DNA of 64,000 nt. It comes from Woeseiaceae bacterium (GTDB lineage: Bacteria; Pseudomonadota; Gammaproteobacteria; Steroidobacterales; Woeseiaceae). The translations under genes were made by a program, and so were the position numbers. This document shows positions 26,054 to 42,335 of the stretch, piece by piece (the stretch's first letter is position 1; every line of letters starts with the position of its first letter). The stretch is taken from the NCBI GenBank assembly GCA_011772865.1, contig WVYQ01000020.1, forward strand, positions 141,298 through 205,297. Reading direction: 5' to 3'. The notes under the pieces are model-generated. The model was not told where the DNA came from. It saw only the letters and a list, made by a program, of their open reading frames with translations, and did not search any database.

Positions 26054-26494
26054 TCAGGCGCAGCCCCCGAACCCTTCGGAGTCCATCTTGGCTTCGTAAG
26101 GCGCCGTTACGTCGGCTCCGGGGACCAATGTCCCGACCACGCTGCCCCAATCCTCGGGTTTCAAAATGACAAGCCAGCCGGCGTCATAAGGATCGTCATT
26201 GGCAAGACTTGGATTCGCGACCAGGTCTTCATTGATCGCGACGACTTCGCCGCCCGCCGCGGACTTGGCCGGTCCGACCCACTTACCGGACTCGAGCGTG
26301 CCGCAGGACTTGCCGGCCCTTACCGAGCGTCCGACCCTTTTCGGTGTATAGGCAACGAGTTTGCCGGCCATGGCCGTAGCGACCGTCGTCATTCCGAGTT
26401 TGACGGTCCCGTCGCCCTGGTCCTGGAACCAGATATGATTGTCAACGTCGTAAAGTAGCTCGTCGGGCAGATTGCATCCGCGTACAACTGGCAT
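26054..26494 (-). CDS. lbpA: Lipoate-binding protein of the sHdr pathway
   Basis: A GcvH-like carrier of 146 residues. The lipoylated lysine is K71 in TLESGKWVGPAKSAAGGEV, aligning with ESVKAAS of glycine cleavage H protein. The rest differs from GcvH as expected for LbpA. In the established sHdr model it carries the sulfur intermediate bound to lipoamide. The start at 26494 is preferred over 26500, because AGGAGG is seven bases before 26494 but one base before 26500. The preceding gene's stop lies within ATGACAATG, so translation is coupled. No other glycine cleavage gene is present in the window, supporting a dedicated role. Confidence 0.92.
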   Translation of the reverse strand: MPVVRGCNLPDELLYDVDNHIWFQDQGDGTVKLGMTTVATAMAGKLVAYTPKRVGRSVRAGKSCGTLESGKWVGPAKSAAGGEVVAINEDLVANPSLANDDPYDAGWLVILKPEDWGSVVGTLVPGADVTAPYEAKMDSEGFGGCA

Positions 26495-26496
26495 TG

Positions 26497-26940
26497 TCAT
26501 GCCTCCTTTGTGGTTCCAGAGTCAAAATTATCGGCAGACCGGATCGGCTTCGCTGAACAACAAAACTCCCCCAGCCCGGCGACCTGCAGCTTGCCGCTGA
26601 CAAACAGATACAGGTGGTTGGACACCATCCTGAGCATCTCGGCACGATTCGCGGTTTGGGTATGCTCAGGCTCCATAGTGACCAGGTTGTAATGCCAGGC
26701 GATTTCACGACACGTTTCCCTGCAGGCGTTAAAACTGGGGTCGCCCCTGGCGCCCTGGCGATGTAACGCAAGCAGTCGAAAGCCCTCACGTTCATCGTGG
26801 GTTGGTTCGTCACCGCGCGCCGTCACCCAGTGTTCGAGCACTTCCTCACTGAACCGCAACAGCTCTTCGGCTGCCTGCAACGGATCGGTCTGCGCGTCCA
26901 CGGCCGCTATGGCCAATTCAATGTCGGCGAGCGGTCTCAT
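26497..26940 (-). CDS. Conserved-position small protein between hdrB2 and lbpA
   Basis: A 147-residue soluble protein, mostly helical by composition, with four cysteines in two pairs (NACRETCREI and EFCCSAKP). Its ATG overlaps the hdrB2 stop (ATGA) and its stop is two bases before the lbpA ATG, so it is embedded in the sHdr-LbpA block and likely made in step with both. I do not recognise a domain. The vicinal CC near the C-terminus and the CxxxC make a thiol or metal role possible. It could be a maturation or docking factor for LbpA or HdrB2. Confidence 0.7.
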   Translation of the reverse strand: MRPLADIELAIAAVDAQTDPLQAAEELLRFSEEVLEHWVTARGDEPTHDEREGFRLLALHRQGARGDPSFNACRETCREIAWHYNLVTMEPEHTQTANRAEMLRMVSNHLYLFVSGKLQVAGLGEFCCSAKPIRSADNFDSGTTKEA

Positions 26941-27869
26941 GCGAGGCCCTTCTGCTTGAGGAACTTCATCGGGTCGGAGACATTTTCATGGACACCGACT
27001 TTCCTGGGCTTTAGACCCAATGCCATGCCGAGGAGCTGGGTGAAATAGAGGATCTTGATATCGACAGTCTCGCCGAGCACCTTCTCTGCCCTTATCTGAT
27101 GCATCTCGAGCCCGGAATGGCAGGTCGGGCATTCGGTCGCAATGACGTCCGCACCGGCGAGTTTCGCCGCTTTGAGAATGTTCAGCACGAGCTTTGTCGA
27201 CGTATCGCTGTCGGACAAGGTGTGCGCGCCCCCGCAACAGGCCGTCTTGAGCGGAAACTCCACATTCTCGGCCCCCGCTGCGGCCAGGAGGTCGTCCATG
27301 AAATGCGGTTTCGACGTCGACTCGGACCCGGGACCCGCATCCTTCTCGGGAAAGATGTGCCGTGGCCGCGTGTACATGCAGCCGTAATAGTTGGCAACCT
27401 TGATGCCGGAGAGCGAATTCTTTACGCGCTCGGCGAGCCCTTCCTCGCCTATCGAATCCTTGATCCAGTCGAGCGCATGAATCGTCTCCACTTGCCCGGA
27501 CTCGTAGCTCTTGTGGCCGGCCTTCTTCGACAGCTTGGCGACAACCTCAACGGATTCGGGATCATGCTTGAGGTCGTATTCGGCTTTTTTCAGGTTGTGA
27601 TAACAACCGTTGCAGGGCGCCATAACGACGTCCATATCCATCTCGTTGACGGCAACAGACATCACGCGTGACGAGAGATAGGTCTGCAGCTTCGGATCGA
27701 TATTCTTGACCTCCATGGCGCCGCAGCAATTCCAGTTTTTGACTTCGACGAGATCCAGCCCCAGCGCCTTGCCGACCGCTTTGGTCGAACGATTGTAGGA
27801 ATGGCCTGTTCCTTCGAGCGCGCAGCCAGGGTAATAGGCAACTTTTTTATATTTGTCTTTTGTCGTCAT
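26937..27869 (-). CDS. hdrB2: sHdr complex subunit HdrB2
   Basis: A 310-residue HdrB-type protein with two complete CCG domains. The first is C16, NWNCCG (C48-C49) and MAPCNGC (C86, C89); the second is YYGCMY, TACCGGAH and TECPTCHSG. Such domains bind noncubane clusters that act on disulfides or thiols, and in sHdr they are proposed to oxidise a protein-bound sulfane sulfur. The track ORF (from 28400) is extended backwards through hdrC2 in another frame; the real ATG at 27869 overlaps the hdrC2 stop as ATGA. Its stop overlaps the next gene in the same way. Confidence 0.92.
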   Translation of the reverse strand: MTTKDKYKKVAYYPGCALEGTGHSYNRSTKAVGKALGLDLVEVKNWNCCGAMEVKNIDPKLQTYLSSRVMSVAVNEMDMDVVMAPCNGCYHNLKKAEYDLKHDPESVEVVAKLSKKAGHKSYESGQVETIHALDWIKDSIGEEGLAERVKNSLSGIKVANYYGCMYTRPRHIFPEKDAGPGSESTSKPHFMDDLLAAAGAENVEFPLKTACCGGAHTLSDSDTSTKLVLNILKAAKLAGADVIATECPTCHSGLEMHQIRAEKVLGETVDIKILYFTQLLGMALGLKPRKVGVHENVSDPMKFLKQKGLA

Positions 27870-28594
27870 GATGACAGCGCCTGCTCCTGTTTCTCGTGCT
27901 GCTCGTCGATGTACTCCTGCATCGCCGCCGCGGCAGAAGACCACCCGCGCGTCTTCGGCGCAACGAATGTCGCGAGACCCATGCGAGTCAGCAAACCGAC
28001 GGGCAGGTTTCGCAGCAAACGCTTGACCATCTCGATCATCCAGGGCTGCATGAGTCCTTGTTTGGTTCGGCTGAAAAAGCGCCGTATCGTGCGGCTCTCT
28101 TCGATCTTGCCGGTCTTGATGACTTGCTCTGTAAACACTTCGTCGAAGTGCATGGATGGTGATTTGGGCGTGTGGCCCTTGCGCTCCAGCCAGTGCGCCG
28201 TCGCTTTCATGACGCCCTCTGGGAAAACGTCTCGCGGACACGCATACGTGCATTTGTTGCAGGACACGCACTGCCAGATGATGTCCTTGTCGCGCAGGAG
28301 CTCGTCCTCCATGCCCATGCGAATCAGGTAGATCCAGTAACGCGGATTGAAATCGGGATTGATCGCGTTGACCGTGCACGAGTTCGTACATGACCCGCAC
28401 TGCCAGCAGCGGTGGATGTTTTCGCCGCCCGGCAACGCTGCAATCTCGTCTTCCATCGCCTCGTTGTAGTCGCTGACGACGCGCGATTCGATGAACGTGC
28501 TCCAGTGACCGGATACATCGACACCGTCAATCACGAGTTCCTCGTGGGTCTTGAGGTTCTCGGGGCGAATCAGTGATTTCTCGTGGATGGGCAT
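27866..28594 (-). CDS. hdrC2: sHdr complex subunit HdrC2
   Basis: A 242-residue iron-sulfur protein with two 4Fe-4S motifs, CWQCGSCTNSC and CVSCNKCTYACP, between about residues 63 and 120, followed by a helical C-terminal region rich in basic residues. It shuttles electrons between the HdrB and HdrA parts of the sulfur-oxidising heterodisulfide reductase-like complex in the cytoplasm. It is the second HdrC in the cluster and pairs with hdrB2, which begins within its stop codon. No membrane helix is seen. Confidence 0.92.
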   Translation of the reverse strand: MPIHEKSLIRPENLKTHEELVIDGVDVSGHWSTFIESRVVSDYNEAMEDEIAALPGGENIHRCWQCGSCTNSCTVNAINPDFNPRYWIYLIRMGMEDELLRDKDIIWQCVSCNKCTYACPRDVFPEGVMKATAHWLERKGHTPKSPSMHFDEVFTEQVIKTGKIEESRTIRRFFSRTKQGLMQPWMIEMVKRLLRNLPVGLLTRMGLATFVAPKTRGWSSAAAAMQEYIDEQHEKQEQALSS

Positions 28595-28605: not shown

Positions 28606-29451
28606 CTAGTTGATTGTCTCGGAGTCGTCGATCACGAACGCCTCACCGTCGATGGATTTGAGCCGGGTCTTGCCGCTGCCCGGCCGCACGCCGTCAAGGC
28701 CGAGTAACCGGCGCGTGTGTTGCATCGGGTCTTCGGGCGCCGAGAAATCGGCGCGCAAATAGCTGCCGCCCTGCTCGCAGATATACTGGGCATAGGCCTG
28801 CGCACACAGGATGTCGACGTACTGCAGGACGTCGCGGAAGAATCCTTCATCCGACAGGAACTGACTCAGTTCCTCGCGCAACATCAGGAACGTGCCATAC
28901 CCGTCCGCGACCTTGATCGTTAAGTGATCGACGTTGTCACCGTGCCAGATCTCGCGCAGGACGCCGGTATTTGCATTCGCGTCCCAGACCCACCGATTCA
29001 TCAGCGGAATCTGTTCGGGATAGACGTTATGCAGCAATTCGGCGGCCAGGTCCCTGACCCACCGATGTTTCTTGTCCTGCGGGAACCGGGCGCAGAATGT
29101 GCTGATCCGGGCGTCGACGTTATCGTCGTCCGCAAACAGCGCGCAAATGCCTTCGTGCAGGTCCGGATACGTGTCGCCGGTCAGCCAGTTGCCGATACGG
29201 CGCCTGACGGTCGCCATAAACGTGCACAGCCCCTTGAACGTCTCGAGGTCGAGACTCTCGACCGCACCATCGGCCAGCGCCTGCTGGAACATCGAGCTCT
29301 TGAGTTTGACGGCATCGACGTAACGCTCGATACCTCCCTGTTCTTCAGAACCTGCAACCACAGACTGCAGCGCCATTCGAATCGCGTCGCCGGACAAGTC
29401 GAGCACGGGACGCTCGACATCAACCGTTTGCAGTGCAGTAAGCCGGGACAC
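28606..29451 (-). CDS. sHdr-associated conserved protein (Hyp between hdrA and hdrC2)
   Basis: A 281-residue soluble protein at the fixed position between hdrA and hdrC2 that is known from type I sHdr clusters (C1-B1-A-hyp-C2-B2). It has no CxxC clusters or nucleotide-binding motif. Visible landmarks are TVRRRIGNWLTGDTYPDLHE, KHRWVRDLAAELLHNVYPEQ and PLMNRWVWDANANTGVLRE. It may be a structural or assembly part of the complex. It is 11 bases behind hdrA and 11 ahead of hdrC2. The position is firm; the function is unknown. Confidence 0.82.
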   Translation of the reverse strand: MSRLTALQTVDVERPVLDLSGDAIRMALQSVVAGSEEQGGIERYVDAVKLKSSMFQQALADGAVESLDLETFKGLCTFMATVRRRIGNWLTGDTYPDLHEGICALFADDDNVDARISTFCARFPQDKKHRWVRDLAAELLHNVYPEQIPLMNRWVWDANANTGVLREIWHGDNVDHLTIKVADGYGTFLMLREELSQFLSDEGFFRDVLQYVDILCAQAYAQYICEQGGSYLRADFSAPEDPMQHTRRLLGLDGVRPGSGKTRLKSIDGEAFVIDDSETIN

Positions 29452-29462
29452 GACGCGTCGCC

Positions 29463-30512
29463 CTAGGCGCTCTTGTCGACCGGCTGGTGGAGTTCGCTCA
29501 ATACGGACATCGCCGCCGCATGGCCCTGCGCAATCGAATCGTCGATCGTCTCGGGGCCCGTCGCCGCACCGGCCACGAATACGCCAGGCCGGGACGTATG
29601 TCCCATCGCACCGTAGCGATTCTCGGCCGCAATGTGACCATGCTCTTCGAGATCGACGCCGAAGATATCAGCAAGCTGCGGATTGTCGACGTTGGGGTCC
29701 ATGCCGATCGCGTGGACGACCATGTCGAACGGGATTGTGATCGGCCGCTTGACGAGCGTGTCCTCGCCCTTGACGATCAGCTTTTCGCCATCAGATGTGA
29801 CCTCCGCGATGCGCGCCTTGATGTACTTGACCTTGAATTCCTCCTGGCTTCGCCAGTAGTACTTGGTCTCGTACAGGCCGAACGTGCGAATGTCCATGTA
29901 GTAGATGTAGACGTGGCATTCGGGCAGTTCCTCGCGAATCTCCATCGCCAGGTTCGACGACACCGTGCAGCAGATCTTCGAGCACCACTCACGCCCGATC
30001 TGGCGATCGCGGGACCCGACACAAAGAAGGATCGCGACGCGCTGGGGTTTGCGGCCATCGGACGGGCAACGCACGCCCTGGCCAGACGAGATCATCTGCT
30101 CGACCTGGGTCGTCGTGACGACGTCGGGAAACGTGCCGAAGCCCCACTCGGGCTTGTTGATCGAGTCGAAGTGGGTGAATCCACTACAAAGTACCGCCGC
30201 TTCAACCTGTGCGTTGTCGCCATTGGAAAACTCTGCGGTGAAGTTGCCCGGTGTCCCGTCAAACTTCGTAACCGTGGTCCCGGTGAGAACCTTGATATTG
30301 GAATCGCCCTCTACCCGATCGACCATGCCGCCGATCGCATCCTTCGCCCACTCGCCCGATGGCACCAGCTTGGCGTAGCCGGACAGTATCGGCGCACCGC
30401 CGAGCTTGTCCTCCTTTTCAACCAGGATGCTGGAGCGACCGACGGTCCCGAGGCTGTGCGCTGCGGCCAGCCCGGCGGGCCCGCCACCGACGATCAGGAT
30501 AGGTTTAGTCAT
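29463..30512 (-). CDS. hdrA: sHdr complex flavoprotein HdrA
   Basis: A 349-residue FAD protein, the short HdrA form typical of sulfur oxidisers, without the extra ferredoxin and MvhD-type domains of methanogen HdrA. The FAD-binding Rossmann motif is at the very start (PILIVGGGPAGLAAAHSLG) and the second flavin motif at the end (SRPGVFVAGAATGPETIDDS). A cysteine group GREWCSKICCTVSSNLA sits where HdrA binds a 4Fe-4S cluster. It is expected to be the electron entry or exit site of the complex. It overlaps hdrB1 by 8 bases, and 11 bases separate it from the next gene. Confidence 0.93.
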   Translation of the reverse strand: MTKPILIVGGGPAGLAAAHSLGTVGRSSILVEKEDKLGGAPILSGYAKLVPSGEWAKDAIGGMVDRVEGDSNIKVLTGTTVTKFDGTPGNFTAEFSNGDNAQVEAAVLCSGFTHFDSINKPEWGFGTFPDVVTTTQVEQMISSGQGVRCPSDGRKPQRVAILLCVGSRDRQIGREWCSKICCTVSSNLAMEIREELPECHVYIYYMDIRTFGLYETKYYWRSQEEFKVKYIKARIAEVTSDGEKLIVKGEDTLVKRPITIPFDMVVHAIGMDPNVDNPQLADIFGVDLEEHGHIAAENRYGAMGHTSRPGVFVAGAATGPETIDDSIAQGHAAAMSVLSELHQPVDKSA

Positions 30513-31854
30513 TGCTTAGTCTCTTGAATCCCGGACCCGATGTAATCATTGTTCTCGGGTCATACAGCGTCTCGCCCTTGCCGGCTTCGACGTCTTTCAG
30601 GTAGGCCTCGAATTCGGCTTTCTTGGCCTGCCAGTCGATGCCCAGTTTGTCCATGAGGGTCTCGGTCGACGACGCATGCCAGTGCGACTGCACGATCTTG
30701 TAGGGATGCGCACCGCATACCAATGCTGCGAACTGGCAGTCGGCGAGTATAGGGAGGTCCACGGGTTTGCCTGCAGCCGCGCCTATCCACTGGTTCTTGT
30801 CGAGCGTCGTGATACAGCCGGTATCGTGACCAATCATCACATCGGCCTTTGCTTCTTCGACGGCGACGCGGATTTTGCGATCGATCGCGAACGAGCGCGT
30901 GAACTCGCGTTCGGAAATAATGTGCCGGAAACCGAAGCCGCAGCAGTCGTACCAGGTACGGTAGTCGATGACCTGCGTGCCCAGCGATTCGAGGATGCCG
31001 GTAGTCACGGCGACGCGATTGCCGCCGAGGATCTTGTCATCGTAGATCGCATCCTCGGGAACCATCTTGTAAACGTGACAGGCCGGGTGCACGGTCGCAC
31101 GAATCTCGCTCGCGTCGATAACCTGGCGCTTCGCGATCTCGTCGCGCATGACGTGCAGCCACTCGGAGTAATGCACGACCTCTTCCGGTATCAGCAGCTT
31201 GCCGTCGACGAGGCGGCCCAGCTTGCCGAGAATCTTTTTGACGCGCTCGCGAAGTTTTGCGGACTGCAGCAGGTATCCGCGCACTTCCTTGTAGTTGCCG
31301 AAAGACGTACCGCAATGCACGAGCGGATAGAAATGACCCTCGGGCAGGCCCTGCGCCTTGGAAGACACATAGGCCTGGTGAAAGTTACGCAGGAATACAG
31401 CAGCGAGGCTTTCAATGTTGCCGATGCCTGAACCATGGTAATTCCACGCCGTACACGACGTCTGGTCCGTCTCGTCGAGGTAGCTGATGTCCAGCTCGTT
31501 CATGAGCCACAAGAGCGACGCCGGGTAACCCGGGATATTGCCGCACTGGCCGCAGGACTTGTGGTGCCAGAGCTGGTTGGTCGGCACACGCTTGTCCCAG
31601 CCATAAAGCGTCTTCACCGTAACGGGCTTGTGCTCGTCCTGGACTCTGTGGACCAGGATCTCGCCGTCCTTCTCGAGCTCCCACATGACGTCGCGGACAT
31701 CTTCAACGCGATCCTTGTTCGTCAGCATCGAACGCCGGTTGACGATCTGGTCGACCCAGACCGTTGCGACATGGGCATCTTCCTTGCTCAGATTCGAATC
31801 GGTCCATTCGGACCCGTGACCCGTAAAACGTTCCCCACCATTACCTGTCGACAT
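30505..31854 (-). CDS. hdrB1: sHdr complex subunit HdrB1
   Basis: A 449-residue HdrB-type protein, longer than HdrB2, with a leading extension of about 90 residues before the first cysteine region. The first CCG-like domain is degenerate (KSCGQCGNIPGYP, then QTSCTAWNYH and LVHCGTSFGNY). The second is HPACHVYKM, TWYDCCGFGFRH and GHDTGCITTLDKNQ. The asymmetry between HdrB1 and HdrB2 is typical and suggests that only one carries a full noncubane cluster per CCG repeat. The gene follows hdrC1 after nine bases and overlaps hdrA. Confidence 0.92.
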   Translation of the reverse strand: MSTGNGGERFTGHGSEWTDSNLSKEDAHVATVWVDQIVNRRSMLTNKDRVEDVRDVMWELEKDGEILVHRVQDEHKPVTVKTLYGWDKRVPTNQLWHHKSCGQCGNIPGYPASLLWLMNELDISYLDETDQTSCTAWNYHGSGIGNIESLAAVFLRNFHQAYVSSKAQGLPEGHFYPLVHCGTSFGNYKEVRGYLLQSAKLRERVKKILGKLGRLVDGKLLIPEEVVHYSEWLHVMRDEIAKRQVIDASEIRATVHPACHVYKMVPEDAIYDDKILGGNRVAVTTGILESLGTQVIDYRTWYDCCGFGFRHIISEREFTRSFAIDRKIRVAVEEAKADVMIGHDTGCITTLDKNQWIGAAAGKPVDLPILADCQFAALVCGAHPYKIVQSHWHASSTETLMDKLGIDWQAKKAEFEAYLKDVEAGKGETLYDPRTMITSGPGFKRLSND

Positions 31855-31863
31855 TTTCTGCTC

Positions 31864-32610
31864 CTAATCCTCGTCTTGCTCATCGAGCCAGTCTTCGTAG
31901 TCATCGCGTTTTTCGTCCATGATGTCGCAGATGACGTCGAAGAGGTTCTCATCAATTGTTTCAAGGCTGTCCAGCACGCCCGTCTCTTCCCAGATCGTGT
32001 AAAGCTCGACCGAGGTCTTGAGGTTGACCTCCCAGGCCGTCTTGGTCGTGTGCAAGGTCGGCATCGGGATGGCCTTGCGCAACAGCTCCAGCGGCGCATC
32101 GACCTTGGAAATATTCGGGCCCCAGTCGGCGAAGTGTTCCGGGTTGATCATGTCGGGCGACAGCTGGTTGCCCGTCGAAATCAGTTTCAGCATCACGCGG
32201 CTGAACGGCCGCAGCACGCTCTTGGCCGACTCCATGCCGTGCTTGATCGCAGTCTCGCGCATGAGCATCACGAGCCCGCCCGGCGAATTACCGAACGGGC
32301 AGCGCGCGGCACAGGTGTAGCACTGCGCGCAGGACCAGATCTTCTCCTGCATGGCATCGTAGATGCCCTCGAGATTCTCGGTCCAGAGCAGCTGCACGAT
32401 CTCGCGCGGACTGAAGTCGTAGTAATGCGCGGCGGGACATGTCGCCGTACAGATACCGCAGTTCAGGCAGCCGTTCAGCTCGTGGTCGTAACGCATGTCC
32501 GACTGTATGTCCTGGAAGATTTCCTCAAGTTGCTCGCGGCCAACGGGCGATTCATCGGAAACCGGATCGCCGATGAATTCCTGGATGCGCGATGTCGATG
32601 AATGAGACAT
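31864..32610 (-). CDS. hdrC1: sHdr complex subunit HdrC1
   Basis: A 248-residue iron-sulfur subunit with motifs CLNCGICTATCPA and CAQCYTCAARCPFG at about residues 48-105. The C-terminal 50 residues are strongly acidic (DEKRDDYEDWLDEQDED), a contrast to HdrC2. It is the first Hdr subunit in the operon, nine bases after dsrE, and would carry electrons from HdrB1 to HdrA. Confidence 0.92.
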   Translation of the reverse strand: MSHSSTSRIQEFIGDPVSDESPVGREQLEEIFQDIQSDMRYDHELNGCLNCGICTATCPAAHYYDFSPREIVQLLWTENLEGIYDAMQEKIWSCAQCYTCAARCPFGNSPGGLVMLMRETAIKHGMESAKSVLRPFSRVMLKLISTGNQLSPDMINPEHFADWGPNISKVDAPLELLRKAIPMPTLHTTKTAWEVNLKTSVELYTIWEETGVLDSLETIDENLFDVICDIMDEKRDDYEDWLDEQDED

Positions 32611-32619
32611 GAGTGAGTC

Positions 32620-32997
32620 CTAGTACGAAAGCACCCGAACGTCCTCTTCCATGACTTCTTCGATCAGGTGCGCGCCGCCGACGATGCCCTCGCATTCCGG
32701 GATCAGGTCATCCTGGGTCATGTCGAACAGGTCGAGATTCGGCGAGCAGCAGTAGAACTTGGCCCCGGCTTCATGGGCATCCTGTATGAAGCTGTAGACC
32801 GACTTGGGCGAACCCTCCTTGACGAAGAGTTTTTCGGCGACGCCCTTTTTCATGAGCCTGCCCGAGGTCGCCGTGCAGATTACATCGACCTCATAGTCCA
32901 TCGCGGCGGCAACCGTGGCCTGGAAAATCGGCGCCCCGAGCTCTTCGCCATTACGCGGGTCGGTGTTGGCCATGACGATAATGAGTTTCTCAGCCAT
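32620..32997 (-). CDS. dsrE: DsrE-type sulfurtransferase of the sHdr cluster
   Basis: A 125-residue DsrE/F-fold protein, first gene of the sHdr operon. The probable sulfur-carrying cysteines are the vicinal C83-C84 (FYCCSPNLDLF), with C41 and C102 elsewhere. Proteins of this group (DsrE3) accept sulfane sulfur from TusA-like carriers and pass it towards sHdr-LbpA. GAGGGG eight bases before the ATG is a good ribosome site. The leader upstream contains a short GC hairpin and the shared palindrome (site B). Confidence 0.9.
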   Translation of the reverse strand: MAEKLIIVMANTDPRNGEELGAPIFQATVAAAMDYEVDVICTATSGRLMKKGVAEKLFVKEGSPKSVYSFIQDAHEAGAKFYCCSPNLDLFDMTQDDLIPECEGIVGGAHLIEEVMEEDVRVLSY

Positions 32998-33050: not shown

Positions 33051-33066
33051 ATTAGCATATCCTAAA
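33051..33066. promoter_or_regulatory. Sulfur-regulon palindrome, site B (ATTAG-N6-CTAAA)
   Basis: ATTAGCATATCCTAAA matches ATTAG-N6-CTAAT at 9 of 10 positions. It starts 54 bases before the dsrE start codon and overlaps the stop codon of the amidotransferase-like gene. This gives the sHdr genes their own regulated promoter within the long minus-strand gene run. Confidence 0.55.
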
Positions 33067-33862
33067 TTACTGTTTCATCCAAACTCTTTGGGGCCTTTGC
33101 GGCCGCCTTCGGCGATGACATAAGGCCCGTGCATTGCACGAGCCCGGTCATGATTGGCACGAGGTCGTCCTCGATCTCCGGCTGCAGCGCGCGGAGCTCG
33201 TCGAGTCTGCGGGCCGCACCCTCGGGGACTTCTTCGAATTCCATGATCAGGTCTTCGACCATGCCGAGCTTAATCCCGGGATTGCCCAGGAAACCATAGG
33301 CATTGTCACCAACTTCGAACACGGCGGCTGAGCCGCCTTCGTCCACGGCCAGCACGCGGGCCGCATCGGGCAGCACGGGCCGGTCACGCATGTAGACAAC
33401 CTGGCTGAAGGTCTCGGGCAGGTAACCGTTCAGGGCGTCGTGGACGACCCGGGTCGCGGTCGTGCACTCGAAGCGGAAATCGGCAGGCTCGCTCGAGCCG
33501 CCGGCCGCGATCGCCAGGATTTGCGCGCCCAGCCCGATGCCGATGACCGGCGTGCCCTCTGCCAGCATCGCGCGCGTGATCGCGATCTCCTCGGCCAGCG
33601 TCGGCAGGTCCCGCGTGCCGGCGCTGCCCCAGGGCCCGCCGCCAAGCAGGATCAGTGCGTCCGCCGGCAGGTCCGGTCCGGGCAGCTTCGCTTTGCCGCC
33701 CGCAAACGGACGAAAGTACTGGAAGCGAATTCGCCGCCCTTCGAGGTGGTCTTCCATGAGTCCAAGATACTCGCCTGCCGTGTGCTGCAGAACGGCGACG
33801 ACGTTCATCGGCGTCTCGGTACGCCCGGCCATTGCGAATGCGTCAGGACTGCACTCAGGCAT
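33062..33862 (-). CDS. Class I glutamine amidotransferase-like protein lacking the catalytic triad
   Basis: A 266-residue protein with the class I glutamine amidotransferase fold (DALILLGGGPWGSAG and AEGTPVIGIGLGAQILAIAA). The nucleophile elbow, normally GxCLGxQ, reads GIGLGAQ, so the cysteine is glycine (G110 here). The His-x-Glu motif, normally FHPE, reads GNPG (N194, G196). Glutaminase activity is therefore not expected; a binding or scaffold role is likely. The start at 33862 has AGGAG six bases upstream; the track start (33943) lies inside the ligase gene. The gene overlaps the sLpl(AB) stop by 8 bases and ends the lipoate assembly operon. Confidence 0.8.
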   Translation of the reverse strand: MPECSPDAFAMAGRTETPMNVVAVLQHTAGEYLGLMEDHLEGRRIRFQYFRPFAGGKAKLPGPDLPADALILLGGGPWGSAGTRDLPTLAEEIAITRAMLAEGTPVIGIGLGAQILAIAAGGSSEPADFRFECTTATRVVHDALNGYLPETFSQVVYMRDRPVLPDAARVLAVDEGGSAAVFEVGDNAYGFLGNPGIKLGMVEDLIMEFEEVPEGAARRLDELRALQPEIEDDLVPIMTGLVQCTGLMSSPKAAAKAPKSLDETVI

Positions 33863-34931
33863 TACGGGCTCCTGCCAGCGCGTTCGCGATCGAGGCCTTG
33901 AAGTCTTCGGGGGACACGCTGAGCATGTCGATATCGTTGTCATTGAAGAACGCGTCGATCTCGCCGTCGATCTCCTCGATGCGCGTCCCGGCCAGGTGGG
34001 CCTCGAGATCGAACACGATTCTTGGCGGCGTCACGAAAAAGTCGCCTGAGATCAGGGCACGCTGCAATACTTGTTTTGTCGGTCCCTCGAGCTTGACGAA
34101 CGAATCGATCGTTCCGCCGGCACCCGTGTGGGTTCCTGCCAACGTACCGTGGTCATCACCGGGGTTGTCGATTTCGGCAACAAACTCGTCGGTGCCGATT
34201 TCTTCAATGAAGTATCGATTGGCCAACGCTTCCTCGTTTTCGGTGATATCGCCTGGCGCGGCCGAAATGCCGAGGCCCTCGGTGAATCCTCGAATGAGCG
34301 CGCCTTTGATCGTCTCGATGTCCGGCATCTCATCGCCGAGCAATTCTTTGAGCGTTACGACCCGTTGCGCCGCCGAGTCCAGGTCCCGCTTGGCGAGCTT
34401 GGCCTCCGGGATCCTCAATGCCTGGACCATCTGCTGGGGGTTCATGTCCACGAGTACCGTGCCCTGGTAGATCAGCACGTCGCCATCGAAGAAGCCACCG
34501 GTACCGGAAATCTTGCGCCCGTCAACCTCGATGTCATTACGCGGGCGGAACGTCGCATCGACGCCCAGTTCCTTGAACCCGAGCGCGGCAGCGTTACAGA
34601 TCTTTTCTGCAAGTTCGGGTAAAGCTGCCACCCCCAACGATGAGCGATGAAAGACGAGCTCCCAACCGAGCTGCCCCTCATCGAGATAGATCGCGCCGCC
34701 GCCCGTGATTCGACGCACGATGCCGACCCCGTTGTTGCGGCAAAAATCGAGGTTGATCTCGCGGCTCAGATCCTGGTGCCGACCGATCAGCGCTGTCGGA
34801 GGAAATCGCAGAAAACGAATCGTGTCCGGCACGTGGCCGGCCTGACGTTCCTCGATCAGTGCTGCGTCGAACGCGATATTGGCACGCCCCTCGCGCACAC
34901 CGGTATCAATAATGCGAAAGGAATCTGTCAT
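33855..34931 (-). CDS. Lipoate-protein ligase sLpl(AB) for LbpA
   Basis: A 358-residue ligase with the LplA-type catalytic domain (RRITGGGAIYLDEGQLGWEL, the lipoyl-AMP loop; GRKISGTGGFFDG with the catalytic lysine) and a C-terminal LplB-like accessory domain from about residue 255. The joined A and B parts are the mark of sLpl(AB), the ligase dedicated to LbpA in the recently described LipS1/LipS2 pathway. It would attach lipoate or octanoate to K71 of LbpA. AGGA six bases upstream supports the ATG. Confidence 0.88.
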   Translation of the reverse strand: MTDSFRIIDTGVREGRANIAFDAALIEERQAGHVPDTIRFLRFPPTALIGRHQDLSREINLDFCRNNGVGIVRRITGGGAIYLDEGQLGWELVFHRSSLGVAALPELAEKICNAAALGFKELGVDATFRPRNDIEVDGRKISGTGGFFDGDVLIYQGTVLVDMNPQQMVQALRIPEAKLAKRDLDSAAQRVVTLKELLGDEMPDIETIKGALIRGFTEGLGISAAPGDITENEEALANRYFIEEIGTDEFVAEIDNPGDDHGTLAGTHTGAGGTIDSFVKLEGPTKQVLQRALISGDFFVTPPRIVFDLEAHLAGTRIEEIDGEIDAFFNDNDIDMLSVSPEDFKASIANALAGARNA

Positions 34932-34949: not shown

Positions 34950-36167
34950 TTACTCGACGCGCACGGGGATGTCGAGTTGCCTGCGGATCTTCCTGACGTC
35001 TTTCCTGGACGGCTGGAACGGGTAACTCGCGATGTCCGACGGCGGAGAGTCGCCATAGGGACGGTCGCAGGCCGAAATATCATCCTGAAACTTGCCCGGG
35101 CAGCCCGAGGTTCGGAACGCGATGCCGGCGTCGATGACGTCAGCGAGTTCGGCATCGGAAATACCGTAGGACTTGACCCGGCCGAGGTCGTCGAAACTCA
35201 TCTGGTCGACACGCACGCCACGATAGTCGATCAGGTAACGCGCGAGCTGCACCCGGCGCCACTGATCACGCGGTGTAGCCGGCAGGTGATCCATGAGCGA
35301 ACCTTCCTCGGGAAAGAAACAGAACATGTGACTGTGCCCACCGAGATCGACCAGCTCTTGCACGAGATTCAGGACCTCGTATTCCGTCTCGCCCATACCG
35401 ACAATGATGTGGGCCCCGAACTTCTGCGGACCGAAGATATCCCGGGCGTCCATCATGATCTCCCAGTACTTTGACCACTTGTGCGGCGACTGCACGCCCT
35501 TACCCCGAGTCTTGTCAAAGATTTCGGGGGTCGCCGCATCGAGCGCCACCGTGAAGATGTCGGCGCCGAGATCCTTCGTCTTCTGCACGTCCTCACGCCT
35601 CATCGTCGTCGGGTTCGACAGGATCGAAATCGGGATGGCGTCCGGGTCAATCTTGTCGGTCCACTGCTTGAGCACCGAAAACGTGTCGTCTTCCGAACGC
35701 GGGTGCGTGATCATCGAGATGCACATGCGATGAAATGGACTGTTGCCGGGATCCTGGGCAACGATGTCGACGATGTCGGTCATCGGCACGGCCGGCCAGT
35801 CGACGCGAATGAAATTACGATCGGCATAGTCCCGGTCGGCTTCGCGGTGTCGCGCGAGGCCGCAGTACGCGCAGTTCGCGCGGCAACCTTCGGGATAGGT
35901 CAGCAGCAAATTGAGGCATCGCGTGCAGTCGCAACGATGCATTCGACCACCCATGATGCCCAGCGTGATGGCTGCTGCATTCGACATTTGCACATACTCG
36001 GGCGAACGCATGTGCGGCGCCAGGATGTTGTTGTTCGGCAGGTATACACCCTGCGGTGGAATGTCGTTGGCCTTGACGGGCTTGCCGTTGCGTCGATCGA
36101 CGGGCGTCTTCTCGGGCAGGCGCGGTTCCATTTCGACATTCGATTTCGGTTCAAAACAACTCATCAT
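34950..36167 (-). CDS. lipS2: Radical SAM sulfur-insertion enzyme LipS2
   Basis: A 405-residue radical SAM protein with the cluster motif CRANCAYCGLARH (CxxxCxxC) near residue 95, preceded by another cysteine pair (HRCDCTRC). Biotin synthase-like family. C-terminal cysteines (TSGCPGKFQDDISACDRP) could bind the auxiliary cluster sacrificed for sulfur. With LipS1 it is known to replace LipA, adding the two sulfurs at C6 and C8 of the octanoyl chain on LbpA. It lies 13 bases behind lipS1. The assignment to S2 rather than S1 follows gene order and the cysteine pattern. Confidence 0.85.
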   Translation of the reverse strand: MMSCFEPKSNVEMEPRLPEKTPVDRRNGKPVKANDIPPQGVYLPNNNILAPHMRSPEYVQMSNAAAITLGIMGGRMHRCDCTRCLNLLLTYPEGCRANCAYCGLARHREADRDYADRNFIRVDWPAVPMTDIVDIVAQDPGNSPFHRMCISMITHPRSEDDTFSVLKQWTDKIDPDAIPISILSNPTTMRREDVQKTKDLGADIFTVALDAATPEIFDKTRGKGVQSPHKWSKYWEIMMDARDIFGPQKFGAHIIVGMGETEYEVLNLVQELVDLGGHSHMFCFFPEEGSLMDHLPATPRDQWRRVQLARYLIDYRGVRVDQMSFDDLGRVKSYGISDAELADVIDAGIAFRTSGCPGKFQDDISACDRPYGDSPPSDIASYPFQPSRKDVRKIRRQLDIPVRVE

Positions 36168-36180
36168 CAGTGTCCTTGTC

Positions 36181-37218
36181 TCATGCCGCGCAGGTCTGCG
36201 CCAGCCTCGCTCTAAGATCCCCGCCCAGTTTGATCGAGCAGCAGGAATGCGCCTGCTCGAACGGTCTGCCGACTGCGTGCGCGACCGATACGGCCCCCTC
36301 CGCCGGAAACGCGATTCCGTCCAGGCCGGCCATGATCGCGTAGGCGTCGGTGACGCGCTTGTGCATGCCGGGCGGCCGGGCGCAGCCCAGTAACACCTGC
36401 TGGTCGGGCAAGCGCTCGCGGGCTTCCAGGAAGATCCTGCCGACGTCCGATGTCTGCGGCGTCACGAACGTGCCGGGTTTGGCATAAAACGGCATGATCA
36501 CCACGAGCACGAGCGCAGTAACCGGGTAACGGCTGACAATGTCGAGCGCGTTTGCTTCGCCCAGTATCCTGCCGTAGTGCAGACCGATCACGATGTGCGG
36601 CGTGACCTCCATAGTCGTTGAACACAGCGCGGCCAGCGTCTCCTCGAAGTCTTCCACGGGCCGCTTGAGCTTGTAGACCTGCTCGATCGTCTCGTTCGCG
36701 CCGATAACGTCCATCATCACGGTGTCGACGCCGGCCGACTCCATGGCCTTCGCCTGTTGTTCTTTCATCAGCGCGCTGTGCACCGCGATGCGCATATCGG
36801 GGTAATCACGCTTTAGACCTTCTACAATAGGAAGGTAGCGCAAATAATTGATTTCGTTGCGTTTATTTGAGCCGCCCGATAGCAGAAAGCCGTTGAGTTC
36901 CTGCGTCTCGACGAGGTGCCGCACCTTGGAATCGAGCATCTCGGGATTGGTTGCCGGAATCATCGGCTCGAGAATTTTTTTCTGGCAGTGATCGCAGTTC
37001 AGGCCGCAAGCCGCTGCCGTGATCGAGAACGCCGGGAAGCTGTTCTTGCCACAGCCCTTGAGTTCGGTGGTCTCGTATTCCTTGAATGTCGGCGTGGAAA
37101 ACCGTATCGGGCGCGGAGCGCGCCCCGCTGCGGCGTCCTCGAACCTGGCGATGAGCGACGCGTCGAACTCGGCATCCTCGAGGTCCTCGATATCGGCCAG
37201 GTAATCGATCCACGCCAT
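36181..37218 (-). CDS. lipS1: Radical SAM sulfur-insertion enzyme LipS1
   Basis: A 345-residue radical SAM protein with the motif CGLNCDHCQKK (CxxxCxxC) near residue 71, followed by the glycine-rich FLLSGGSNKRNEINYLRYLP. The last residues include SCCSIKLGG and a terminal TCAA, possible ligands of an auxiliary cluster. It is paired with LipS2 for two-step sulfur insertion into protein-bound octanoate. It sits five bases after the HDAC-like gene. Confidence 0.85.
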   Translation of the reverse strand: MAWIDYLADIEDLEDAEFDASLIARFEDAAAGRAPRPIRFSTPTFKEYETTELKGCGKNSFPAFSITAAACGLNCDHCQKKILEPMIPATNPEMLDSKVRHLVETQELNGFLLSGGSNKRNEINYLRYLPIVEGLKRDYPDMRIAVHSALMKEQQAKAMESAGVDTVMMDVIGANETIEQVYKLKRPVEDFEETLAALCSTTMEVTPHIVIGLHYGRILGEANALDIVSRYPVTALVLVVIMPFYAKPGTFVTPQTSDVGRIFLEARERLPDQQVLLGCARPPGMHKRVTDAYAIMAGLDGIAFPAEGAVSVAHAVGRPFEQAHSCCSIKLGGDLRARLAQTCAA

Positions 37219-37222
37219 TGCT

Positions 37223-38356
37223 TCAGTCCTTGACCAGCTGAGCAGCCAATAATTCTATCTCGGCGCGAACCGGGCCGTCATGCGGAATATCCACGAGGGT
37301 TGTCAGCCAATGCGCATCGACATCTTCTTCGTCGATCAGGTCGCACTCCATCATCGTCAGCATTTCGACGGCAGCTGCGGGTAGCGTCTCGGGCAATTCT
37401 TGGCCCGTCAGTCGGCCCCACATACCTGCCCAGTAACGACAGACGGTCCAGGGGTTATAGCCCCCGCCACCCAGAACCACCGAGGGCACTCCAAATTCGA
37501 GCAACTGGTCGACCGTCTCCCAAAGCGCAACATTACTCAGCTCCATCGACGATAGCGGGTCGCCGGCGAGGCTGTCAGCTCCGCAACACAGCACGAGCGC
37601 ATCCGGTCGGAAATCCGTTGCAATTGGCAGCACGGCAGTCTCCACCAGGTAACGAAGTTCGGCGTCATTAAGTCCCCGCGGTACCGGAAAGTTGCGCGCG
37701 CCTCCACCGGCCCTGTCGTCGGCTGCGCCGCTGAACGGCCATCGATCCTGTTCGTGGATCGACAGCGTCAGCACCCGCGGTTCCTCGGTGAAGGCCTCTT
37801 CGACACCGTCGCCGTGATGCGCATCCAGATCGACATACAGTACGCGGCGGCATCCCCGCTTGAGAAAGGTCCGGATCGCGAATACGGGATCGTTGAAATA
37901 GCAGAAACCGCTCGCACGATCGCGACGTCCATGGTGCGTCCCACCCGACGGGTGGAAGACCACGTGGCCATCGCACGCAAGTTCTGCCGCCAGGATCGAA
38001 CCGCCAACCGTCGTAGCGGCGCGTTCGAACACGCCCTCGAACAGAGGATTCTCGAGCGTTCCTATGTTGTAACGCTCGCGAATTTCCGGATCGACATTCC
38101 CCGCGGAATCTGCGTATTGCAGGGCCTCGACATACTGGGAATCATGAAACCCGGCGAGTTGTTGAACAGTCGCCGCGTGTGGGATGCGGAAGTCTTCTTC
38201 TCGCAGCCAGCCGAGTGTGCGCACAAGATCGAGCACCGCCGAGTGCCGTACGATCTTGAGCGGATGATTGGCGCCGAACGCGGCACGCCGGAATACCTCG
38301 CTGCCCAAATAAAGCGGGGCCTGATAAAGGGCGGTTTCCGGCTGTGGTTGGTGCAT
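37223..38356 (-). CDS. HDAC/AcuC-family lysine deacylase leading the lip operon
   Basis: A 377-residue zinc-dependent deacetylase of the histone deacetylase/AcuC fold. Catalytic motifs are intact: GGTHHGRRDRASGFCYFND, the zinc-binding YVDLDAHHGDGVEEAF and the terminal GGGGYNPW. Usual roles are deacetylation of acetoin-pathway acetyl-CoA synthetase, polyamines or lysines. It is the first gene of the LipS1-LipS2-sLpl operon, four bases ahead of lipS1. It might remove acyl groups, including wrongly attached octanoyl or acetyl groups, from the LbpA lysine, but that is only inferred from its place. Confidence 0.85.
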   Translation of the reverse strand: MHQPQPETALYQAPLYLGSEVFRRAAFGANHPLKIVRHSAVLDLVRTLGWLREEDFRIPHAATVQQLAGFHDSQYVEALQYADSAGNVDPEIRERYNIGTLENPLFEGVFERAATTVGGSILAAELACDGHVVFHPSGGTHHGRRDRASGFCYFNDPVFAIRTFLKRGCRRVLYVDLDAHHGDGVEEAFTEEPRVLTLSIHEQDRWPFSGAADDRAGGGARNFPVPRGLNDAELRYLVETAVLPIATDFRPDALVLCCGADSLAGDPLSSMELSNVALWETVDQLLEFGVPSVVLGGGGYNPWTVCRYWAGMWGRLTGQELPETLPAAAVEMLTMMECDLIDEEDVDAHWLTTLVDIPHDGPVRAEIELLAAQLVKD

Positions 38357-39275: not shown

Positions 39276-40027
39276 ACAACTTCCCGGGCCTCACTGACGA
39301 GGCCGGCCGAGCGGGATACTTGGTGCAACATATAGATGGGGCGGCCCTGAACGACTGACTCGTCGATACCCTTGCGAACATCAACTGCGATACTTGGCAT
39401 GATGCGCGCCTGGGTTCCCGCCCACATGCGTTCGATCGGCCAGTGCACATGCCCGCAAAGCAATCCGATGACCTGCGGCTGCCGCTGTACGATGTCTGCG
39501 AGAGCCTCGGCCTCTTCCGGATGGCGGTAGCCACCGACGTAATGATCGCCAACGTCGAAGGGCGGGTGATGAATGAAGAGCAGCGTCGGCCGGCCGGGCT
39601 GGTCATGGAGCGTCTTGTCGAGCCAGGACTGCCGTACTTCGCAAAAGCGGCCCTTGCGTTCGCTCGCCAACGTCGAATCGATGCCGACGAGGCGCGTATC
39701 GTAATCGTCGATCACATAGTGCAGGAAATCGCCCGTCGCGGGTAAATAAGCCAGGTCACTCAACGCGGCACGCATCGCGTCCTTATCGTCGCGGTTGCCC
39801 GGCACCGGGTAAAGCGGCGCCTCGAGCGGTGCCAGCAGTTCGCGCAAGAGCGCGTACTCTTCAGGCTGACCATGCTGCACCGTATCGCCGGTGAAAATCA
39901 CGGCGTCGGGCTGCCGGTAATTGATGTCGGCGACAGTGCGGCGCAGGCAGTCGGCCCGCAAACTCGCTGCGGGCTGGTCCGACTCTGGCGACAGTATGTG
40001 CGTGTCGCTGATCTGCGCAATGAGCAC
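39272..40027 (-). CDS. Calcineurin-like (Icc/CpdA-type) metallophosphoesterase
   Basis: A metal-dependent phosphodiesterase of about 251 residues with the complete motif set: AQISDTHILS, FTGDTVQHG, PGNRDDKD, FIHHPPFDVG and CGHVHWPIE. It resembles cAMP phosphodiesterase CpdA. I prefer the GTG at 40027, whose G is shared with the aprA stop (TAGTG) and which leads directly into the first strand (VLIAQISDTH). The track ATG at 40069 would add 14 residues from inside aprA. Being the last gene of the apr operon, it may act on a nucleotide linked to APS metabolism, or on cAMP. Confidence 0.8.
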   Translation of the reverse strand: MLIAQISDTHILSPESDQPAASLRADCLRRTVADINYRQPDAVIFTGDTVQHGQPEEYALLRELLAPLEAPLYPVPGNRDDKDAMRAALSDLAYLPATGDFLHYVIDDYDTRLVGIDSTLASERKGRFCEVRQSWLDKTLHDQPGRPTLLFIHHPPFDVGDHYVGGYRHPEEAEALADIVQRQPQVIGLLCGHVHWPIERMWAGTQARIMPSIAVDVRKGIDESVVQGRPIYMLHQVSRSAGLVSEAREVV

Positions 40028-41871
40028 TAGTCGACGATGTGATAGACGGGCGCTTTCTCCAGCTCCCATTCACCCGTGTTCTTGTCGTACTGGGAAAGCG
40101 TAAAGCAATGCCAATCCTGGTCGTCGAGCTTCATGTGGTCGCCGCGATAGTAGTACCCGGGCCACCGTGTCTCCTTGCGGAACAGCGTGTGGTGCGTGAC
40201 CGATTCCGAGGCGCGCAGACGATGTTGCAGCTCCCATGCCCGCTGCAGCTGATGCAGGTCTTCGGCGCCGATGTTGTCCATGTCCTCCCGGAGCATATCC
40301 AGCAATTCGAGGCCTCTTGTCAGTAACGGTTCGTTCGTCATGTAACCGGTACTGATTCCGCCAACGTACTCGTCCATGATTTTCTCGAGACGCTGCAGGC
40401 CCTGTATCGGCGAGAAATAACTCGGCGAAACGGTGCCCGCGACGATCTCGTTGCGTCCCACTTCGTAGTTTTCGAGAGGCTGGAAGACTTTCTTTTTCAG
40501 CCCCTGGTACTCGTCCTCGCTGACCTGTGGCGCATCCTTGCCCATGTTCTTGATGTACCTGACCGCCGCCTTGGCGGCGATACGGCCTTCCGTGTAAGAG
40601 CCCGATGAGAATTTGTGGGCGGTGCCACCAATCGTATCACCGGCCCCGAACAGACCATCGACCGTCATCATGCGGTTGTAGCCCCACTGATACTCGTCAG
40701 GCGCGTAGTCTTCGGGTCCGCTCGCCCAGGCACCCGAACACGTAGCATGAGAACCCATGACGTAAGGTTCGGAGGTCGTCAGTTCGGGATTGACGTGCTT
40801 GGGATCGATATTCTGTGATGCCCACACAACGGCCTGGCCGATAGTCATGCCCAGGAAGTTCTCCCAGCCGATGGTTTCCTTGTGAGGATCCTGGAAGGCC
40901 TCTTTGGTCACCATTCGGATCGGCCCCCTCCCCGCCTTCAGTTCCTCGAGCAACGCATGGTTACGCAGGCAGGTCGGGACCGGGTGACGATCGACGTAGT
41001 CACCTACGAGCTCCTTCGTATGGTCGTACCATTTGGACTCGTACTCCTCGCCGTAGGCGTTCTCGGTGTACGTCTTCAGATGGAGGAAGTACGCACCGAC
41101 CGGGCCGTAGCCGTCCTTGAATCGCGTGAGGACGATGCGATTTTCCATCTGCGTCATCTTGGCGCCGACCTCGATCGGCAAGGCATACGCGGAAGCGCTG
41201 CTCCACGGGGCGTACCAGGTCCTGCCCATGCCCTCGCCGACCGCGCGTGGCTTGTAGATATGCGATGCGCCACCCGCGGCCACGATGACGGCTTTGGCAC
41301 GAAAAACATAGAAATCGCCGGTACGAACGTTGAAACCTACGGCGCCCGCAACCCGGTTTTCTTTCGTCTTGTCCATCAGCAGGTGGGTCACCATGATGCG
41401 GTTGTAGACCTCTGACGCAGCCTCGCGCGCGGCTTCGGCAACAATCGGCTTGTAGCTTTCGCCGTGAATCATGATCTGCCATTTGCCCTCGCGCTGGTAG
41501 CGGCCGGTCTCGGGATCGCGCATGATCGGCAGGCCCCACTCCTCGAACTTGTGGACGGTAGAGTCCACGTGGCGCGCGATGTCGTAGCCGAGATCCTCGC
41601 GAACGAGGCCCATGAGGTCATTGCGCGCATAGCGGACGTGATCCTCGGGCTGATTCTCGTCCCACTGCATGCCCATATAGCAGTTGATGGCATACAGACC
41701 CTGGGCTACGGCTCCGCTGCGTTCGATGTTGGCTTTCTCGACGCAAACGATCTTGAGGTCGCGACCCCAGTGCCGGGCTTCGTAGGTCGCGCCGCAACCG
41801 GCCATGCCACCGCCGATGACGAGAACGTCGGAATCTACAAATTTTGTCTTTCTACGTGAGAACAGTCCCAT
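40027..41871 (-). CDS. aprA: Adenylylsulfate reductase alpha subunit
   Basis: A 614-residue FAD protein of the fumarate reductase family, the catalytic subunit of dissimilatory APS reductase. In sulfur oxidisers it runs in reverse and forms APS from sulfite and AMP. Seen: VLVIGGGMAGCGATYEARHW for FAD, VCVEKANIERSGAVAQG, GAGDTIGGTAHKFSSGSYTEG, and the C-terminal HYTLFRKETRWPGYYYRGDH-like stretch typical of AprA. The ATG overlaps the aprB stop (TAATG). The order aprM-aprB-aprA marks the AprM type rather than the Qmo type. Confidence 0.95.
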   Translation of the reverse strand: MGLFSRRKTKFVDSDVLVIGGGMAGCGATYEARHWGRDLKIVCVEKANIERSGAVAQGLYAINCYMGMQWDENQPEDHVRYARNDLMGLVREDLGYDIARHVDSTVHKFEEWGLPIMRDPETGRYQREGKWQIMIHGESYKPIVAEAAREAASEVYNRIMVTHLLMDKTKENRVAGAVGFNVRTGDFYVFRAKAVIVAAGGASHIYKPRAVGEGMGRTWYAPWSSASAYALPIEVGAKMTQMENRIVLTRFKDGYGPVGAYFLHLKTYTENAYGEEYESKWYDHTKELVGDYVDRHPVPTCLRNHALLEELKAGRGPIRMVTKEAFQDPHKETIGWENFLGMTIGQAVVWASQNIDPKHVNPELTTSEPYVMGSHATCSGAWASGPEDYAPDEYQWGYNRMMTVDGLFGAGDTIGGTAHKFSSGSYTEGRIAAKAAVRYIKNMGKDAPQVSEDEYQGLKKKVFQPLENYEVGRNEIVAGTVSPSYFSPIQGLQRLEKIMDEYVGGISTGYMTNEPLLTRGLELLDMLREDMDNIGAEDLHQLQRAWELQHRLRASESVTHHTLFRKETRWPGYYYRGDHMKLDDQDWHCFTLSQYDKNTGEWELEKAPVYHIVD

Positions 41872-42335
41872 TAGACCACTCCCTTCTTGAGTTGGTCCGG
41901 ATTCAACGCGGGCAAGCCGCCTTCAATGTTCAGTGCGTCGGGTTCGTGGGCAAGCACCTGGCTCATCAGGTCCTCGTCACTGGGCGGCGGCAACTCGGCC
42001 GGCGAAGGAATCGTTCCCCAATCCGTCGTGCGTATTGGCGAGACGAAGTCCTTTTCATGACCGTTCCTGAAGATGATCTTCCAGGAGATCGTGCCTTTCT
42101 CTGGCTCACGCAGTACGCGCACGCTGTGACCGAGCGGTGCGAAATCAGCATAACCGCGGGCGTCAATCGCGTTCTGGGGGCACGCCTTGACACACGAATA
42201 GCATTCCCAGCACATGTTCGGTTCGATGTTGAGTGCACGCCGATAGGTCTTGTCGATGTGCATGATGTCGGACGGACAGATATCGACGCAGTGTCCACAG
42301 CCGTCGCAACGAGTCATATATACGAAAGTAGGCAT
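41871..42335 (-). CDS. aprB: Adenylylsulfate reductase beta subunit
   Basis: A 154-residue iron-sulfur subunit with two clusters (CDGCGHCVDICPSDIMHI and CWECYSCVKACPQNAID) and the C-terminal tail that wraps around AprA. It passes electrons from the AprA flavin to the membrane partner AprM. It is 14 bases behind aprM and overlaps aprA by one base. Confidence 0.95.
   Translation of the reverse strand: MPTFVYMTRCDGCGHCVDICPSDIMHIDKTYRRALNIEPNMCWECYSCVKACPQNAIDARGYADFAPLGHSVRVLREPEKGTISWKIIFRNGHEKDFVSPIRTTDWGTIPSPAELPPPSDEDLMSQVLAHEPDALNIEGGLPALNPDQLKKGVV

Follow-up and report, generated by a model that had tools for sequence, protein, structure and literature searches.

The window analysed here is a 64,000-nucleotide stretch of Woeseiaceae DNA. 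On its minus strand a run of lip genes begins with a histone-deacetylase (HDAC)-fold gene (37223–38356; PF00850, E 5e-70), which precedes lipS1 in most loci whose flanks are long enough, and continues with lipS1 (36181–37218; NF053742, E 1e-57), lipS2 (34950–36167; NF053743, E 5e-55) and the lipoate-protein ligase gene slpl(AB) (33855–34931; PF21948, E 6e-47). Then comes lipX (33062–33862, also minus strand), an open reading frame of 266 aa with no internal stops, adjoined by a DsrE-family gene that is probably dsrE3C (32620–32997; PF13686). The next gene (31864–32610) we take to be shdrC1, from its place in the conserved order and from knowledge of sHdr clusters. The sHdr marker shdrB1 (30505–31854) was identified by sHdrB1 searches, and shdrA (29463–30512), a hypothetical gene of the sHdr cluster with no Pfam match (28606–29451) and shdrC2 (27866–28594) were assigned by conserved order. 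The lipoate-binding protein gene lbpA (26054–26500; PF01597, E 2e-30) lies beyond them, and all these genes are on the minus strand. The 8-base overlap of the slpl(AB) end and the lipX start (33855–33862), pointed out in an earlier, sequence-only reading of this DNA, was confirmed. Lying between slpl(AB) and dsrE3C, with its start overlapping the slpl stop, the gene has the position expected in sHdr-lip clusters and is, by that position, the lipX of the literature.

Other features of the window were recorded in passing. The HDAC-fold gene could encode a lysine deacylase acting on LbpA. LipS1 and LipS2 (34950–37218, minus strand) both score below the NCBIfam curated cut-offs; LipS1 matches in all searched samples did so, the true-looking ones reaching about 181–205 bits against 230. 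A clear LipT was not found in the window genome (85% complete): one match lay in the lipS1 region, probably through overlap of the query frame with lipS1, and the second reached only 27% identity. Beside the lip genes of the Woeseiaceae-type loci L021–L047 no LipT homologue was found, and one was present in 41 of 84 LipX loci. Upstream of the lip genes, at 40027–42335 (minus strand), are flavoprotein and ferredoxin-type genes resembling aprA and aprB, and a few loci likewise have AprA homologues.

The closest Pfam and NCBIfam families to the window LipX are class I glutamine amidotransferases (GATases), and its match to the Pfam GATase family PF00117 (E 6e-6) passes the cut-off. An AlphaFold2 (AF2) model built from a 49-row alignment had a pLDDT of 87.4 and a pTM of 0.87. 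Its top Foldseek matches were the class I amidotransferases 1o1y (E 3e-14) and 3m3p (E 1e-13), and also 8khs. The predicted fold of the window LipX is that of a class I GATase. Whereas the fold and the Pfam match are those of a catalytic class I GATase, the catalytic Cys, His and Glu are each missing. The nucleophile elbow reads G-I-G110-L-G-A-Q, against G-I-C-L-G-A-Q in active relatives, and the His/Glu motif reads G-N194-P-G196, against F-H-x-E. The substitutions are Cys110 to Gly (codon at 33533–33535), His194 to Asn (33281–33283) and Glu196 to Gly (33275–33277), all on the minus strand. From the reading frame, Pfam, AF2, Foldseek and its orthologues, lipX can be described as a catalytically dead class I GATase homologue. 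Two further features mark it. The oxyanion-loop segment LLGGGPWG (residues 72–79; 33626–33649, minus strand) carries a one-residue Gly insertion, which the earlier description did not include; this Gly74 is missing in LipX2 (see below) and in Cys-bearing GATases. The C-terminal helix seen by AF2/DSSP (residues 216–245; 33128–33217, minus strand) is mostly unaligned in Cys-bearing relatives, columns 232–248 being gapped in most of the active ones.

To see how far the substitutions are shared, LipX was aligned from 16 genus orthologues (65–81% identity to the window protein) and 80 named loci of alpha-, beta- and gammaproteobacteria, and residues were counted over 81 LipX including that of the window. 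Position 110 was Gly in 81/81 across the three classes, and Cys in 23/23 active relatives. At position 196 Glu was lost in all 81 (80 Gly, one Ala) and present in 23/23 active relatives. Position 194 was His in 58/81 and Asn in 23/81; His was kept in 5 of 28 Woeseiaceae-type LipX versus 53/53 of the others. Thus loss of His194 is restricted to Woeseiaceae-type members (23/28), and the universal losses are two of the three. The claim that all three catalytic residues are gone is right for the window protein and most of its genus but does not extend to the family. The check for a shared loss in homologues gave a clear answer, since no intact Cys-His-Glu triad occurred among the 81. Conserved residues across the LipX alignment include no Cys. 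A divergent LipX pair (L148 and L149) has Glu at the nucleophile position. Among Woeseiaceae-type genes the median pairwise dN/dS was 0.143 for lipX and 0.123 for slpl; lipX is under purifying selection.

A class-wide gammaproteobacterial search detected further proteins at about 60–115 bits. One branch of 16 proteins was designated LipX2; G127, with an intact Cys motif, was left out. Gly occupies the nucleophile position in 16/16, and the His/Glu motif is mostly FRPE(M/L)KPG, indicating that His was replaced by Arg and Glu retained. In gammaproteobacteria LipX2 is located apart from the lip genes. In the fetched regions (L119–L134) a LysR-family gene was upstream and a short unknown gene downstream of LipX2 in 16/16 loci, and a permease-like gene followed in 11/16; no sHdr genes were seen beside LipX2 within these regions. 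The short gene of L119 had no Pfam or NCBIfam match. HDAC-fold genes also occur within the fetched regions of seven LipX2 loci. Cys is replaced by Glu in a third lineage (L150). A third Cys-less lineage is likewise represented by L172:7970–8677 (minus strand) of G332, with Cys to Glu, His kept and Glu to Gln; this gene adjoins an apparent hemL-like gene and a DsrE2 homologue, and G332 also carries LipS1 and sHdrB1.

In a tree computed without the triad columns, 22 Cys-less and 23 Cys-bearing proteins were separated by a split with 100/100 support. As the tree is unrooted and its Cys-bearing rows are those reached by the profile, it shows one split between the two groups and falls short of proving a single loss. 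Ten residues (E37, R43, Y49, R51, P195, K198, E203, D204, M207 and E208) are fully or almost fully conserved across LipX and LipX2 but not among Cys-bearing relatives; the new charged residues shared on the Cys-less side are E37, R43, Y49, R51, K198, E203, D204 and E208. The former catalytic positions differ among lineages, 110 being Gly or Glu and 194 His, Asn or Arg.

The usual gene order at LipX loci was HDAC-fold gene, lipS1, (lipT), lipS2, slpl, lipX, dsrE3, shdrC1, B1, A, hypothetical gene, C2, B2, lbpA. sLpl was directly upstream of LipX in 74/84 loci and DsrE3 directly downstream in 76/84. The sHdr and lip genes occupy opposite strands in four loci (L078, L095, L170 and L171), and there LipX stays with DsrE3-sHdr, which rules out a strict tie between LipX and sLpl. 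In L059 and L075 LipX comes after sLpl, and the 3.6–4.8 kb downstream show no sHdr gene. sLpl-LipX fusions, suspected from long frames in L049 and L074, were dismissed when a domain search gave no sLpl part. Three loci (L057, L066 and L068) come from metagenome-assembled genomes titled Bordetella parapertussis, probably a misnomer, in which sHdr and lip genes occur.

The distribution of LipX was then set against those of LipS1 and sHdrB1. Among 274 gammaproteobacterial genomes (carriers counted without G127), LipS1 was found in 21, LipX or LipX2 in 18 and both in 16. sHdrB1 was found in 15 genomes of a 229-genome gammaproteobacterial draw, and all 15 had LipX or LipX2. With the remaining three carriers covered by a separate search, sHdrB1 was present in 18/18 gammaproteobacterial carriers. 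Across the genomes sampled, LipX or LipX2 was present wherever shdrB1 was. One search found sHdrB1 in all 20 LipX/LipX2 genomes tested, including G164, which has LipX2 and sHdrB1 and no LipS1 above 38 bits. Classes beyond the gammaproteobacteria were covered by sampling only. The Fisher value for co-occurrence (8e-24) overstates the evidence, because the counts depend on E-value cut-offs, the draw of 229 was taken as part of the 274 (all listed handles recur) and related genomes are not independent.

LipX was not present wherever lipS1 was. Six genomes had LipS1 and lacked LipX (G093, G103, G236, G244, G325 and, from the phylum sample, G696). In these six, no sHdrB1 was detected at the threshold used, and the LipX2 profile gave nothing or weak matches of at most 62 bits. 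In the five loci fetched, all except that of G696, lbpA and slpl lay beside lipS1, and LipS2 was also seen in those of G103, G236 and G325; the fetched contigs of G093 (7.9 kb) and G244 (6.5 kb) are short, G236 and G244 are 72% and 81% complete, and G696 is known by LipS1 only. dsrA passed the curated cut-off in G093, G103 and G325, G244 gave only a low-scoring match, and G236 and G696 gave none. Two genomes of one genus with lip genes differ in the same way: G214 has both sHdrB1 and LipX2, G325 neither. In the genomes sampled, the LipX gene goes with sHdr and not with lipoate assembly. The sequence-only reading had tied the gene to LbpA lipoylation through its overlap with sLpl and had proposed that it scaffolds LipS1, LipS2 and LbpA. 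Neither proposal was supported as stated, since the six lipS1-bearing genomes without LipX all lacked sHdrB1, five of them with lbpA and slpl adjoining, and the carriers have sHdrB1.

A conserved non-catalytic role, which that reading had also thought likely, is well supported by the family-wide loss, the purifying selection and the family's own conserved signature. Decay or sequencing error limited to one genome is effectively ruled out, because the change is common to all orthologues and lipX evolves at a dN/dS of about 0.14. Continued glutamine hydrolysis or ammonia transfer by LipX in the absence of Cys is highly improbable. The annotation alone, "putative glutamine amidotransferase" (PMC10332631), speaks for it; against it, Cys is missing in 81/81 LipX and 16/16 LipX2, and a Cys to Ser change explains the lost glutamine use of human CPS1 (PMC4655335). 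With Gly or Glu replacing Cys throughout LipX and LipX2 and the Glu gone from LipX, glutamine should therefore not be processed by the usual thioester route. It is unlikely, too, that LipX is an enzyme with new chemistry at other residues of the old pocket, which might be K198/E203/D204/E208 or R51. A new charged set, conserved in both LipX and LipX2 but not among active relatives, would suit such an enzyme, but the conserved residues include no Cys, and lineages differ at the positions that were once catalytic.

A non-catalytic helper of lipoate assembly that scaffolds sLpl, LipS1, LipS2 and LbpA has more to recommend it, and we still consider it somewhat unlikely. LipX directly follows sLpl in most loci and overlaps it in the window, and the passages on these genes in PMC11582611 and PMC10332631 place lipX in the assembly set. 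Moreover, E. coli carrying lipS1-slpl(AB)-lipT-lipS2 and no lipX attached a mercaptooctanoyl group to LbpA with an inefficient second sulfur insertion (as described in PMC10332631), leaving room for a missing helper, but the same account puts the incomplete second insertion down to heterologous expression. A helper is hard to square with the absence of LipX from six genomes that have lipS1, five of them with lbpA and slpl beside it, and with G164, which has LipX2 and sHdrB1 and no LipS1 above 38 bits. These results suggest that LipX takes part in sulfur oxidation without catalysing a step, and is not an enzyme of lipoate synthesis. Our main reading, to which we give a probability of about 50%, is that LipX is a conserved pseudo-glutamine amidotransferase whose contribution to sHdr sulfur oxidation is to bind rather than to hydrolyse. 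It rests on the triad loss, the 100/100 split, the shared signature, the dN/dS, the fold and the co-occurrence with sHdrB1. Several observations weigh against this reading: the place of LipX directly after sLpl in 74/84 loci; the two loci with sLpl-LipX and no sHdr gene 3.6–4.8 kb downstream; the LipX2 genes, which in the fetched regions have a LysR regulator and a permease-like gene, and no sHdr genes, as neighbours; and the co-occurrence counts, which are not independent and to part of which a shared lithotrophic lifestyle could give rise.

If LipX does serve sHdr by binding, the strand-end residues Q26-H27, R51-P52-F53, GGGPWG, G110 and H/N194-P-G-x-K198 would, judging from the fold topology, still form a pocket, and this pocket may hold a ligand or a side chain. 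LipX would then dock to an sHdr-specific partner, which may be the sHdr complex, the sulfur donor DsrE3C, or LbpA when it works with sHdr. Extending this, we tentatively propose that LipX and LipX2 are an unrecognised regular sHdr component of Proteobacteria, a pseudo-amidotransferase holding or gating another sHdr partner, which may be DsrE3C or LbpA loaded with sulfur; on this view they would be retained in every user of sHdr and missing where lip genes occur without it. To our knowledge, how sHdr converts sulfane sulfur to sulfite, and what part LbpA plays there, is not settled. If LipX matches sHdr genome by genome, a dead amidotransferase would add a component to the sHdr machinery, and if the sHdr reading is true, lipX would move out of lipoate assembly.

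The lipX gene of Hyphomicrobium denitrificans (Hden_0687) is described as a "putative glutamine amidotransferase" (PMC10332631, PMC10451225). Like the window lipX, it comes immediately behind slpl(AB), its start overlapping the slpl(AB) stop, and is followed by dsrE3C and the shdr genes; the likeness is one of position. In the passages on Hden_0687 in these papers, the gene is grouped with lipoate assembly, as in that on lipX in PMC11582611, and the triad loss is not mentioned. A GATase1 drawn in sHdr clusters (eLife 2018, PMC6067878, Figure 2 legend) is, by name and cluster, very probably the same gene; it appears there as a legend label, and no catalytic analysis was found with it. In the open-access literature searched, we found no report of catalytic loss in LipX or of a pseudo-amidotransferase in sulfur oxidation. 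The inactive glutaminase domain of human CPS1 (Cys to Ser294; PMC4655335) resembles LipX in that a class I GATase domain was kept after loss of the Cys, but it is a domain of a synthetase, whereas LipX stands alone, and no synthetase partner accompanies it in the loci studied. LipX has its fold and several motifs in common with active class I GATases of the PRK07053/PRK06490 type, solved relatives being 9xfs, 3m3p and 1o1y. The active enzymes keep Cys, His and Glu, whereas LipX is without Cys and Glu and has an inserted oxyanion-loop Gly and a longer C-terminal helix.
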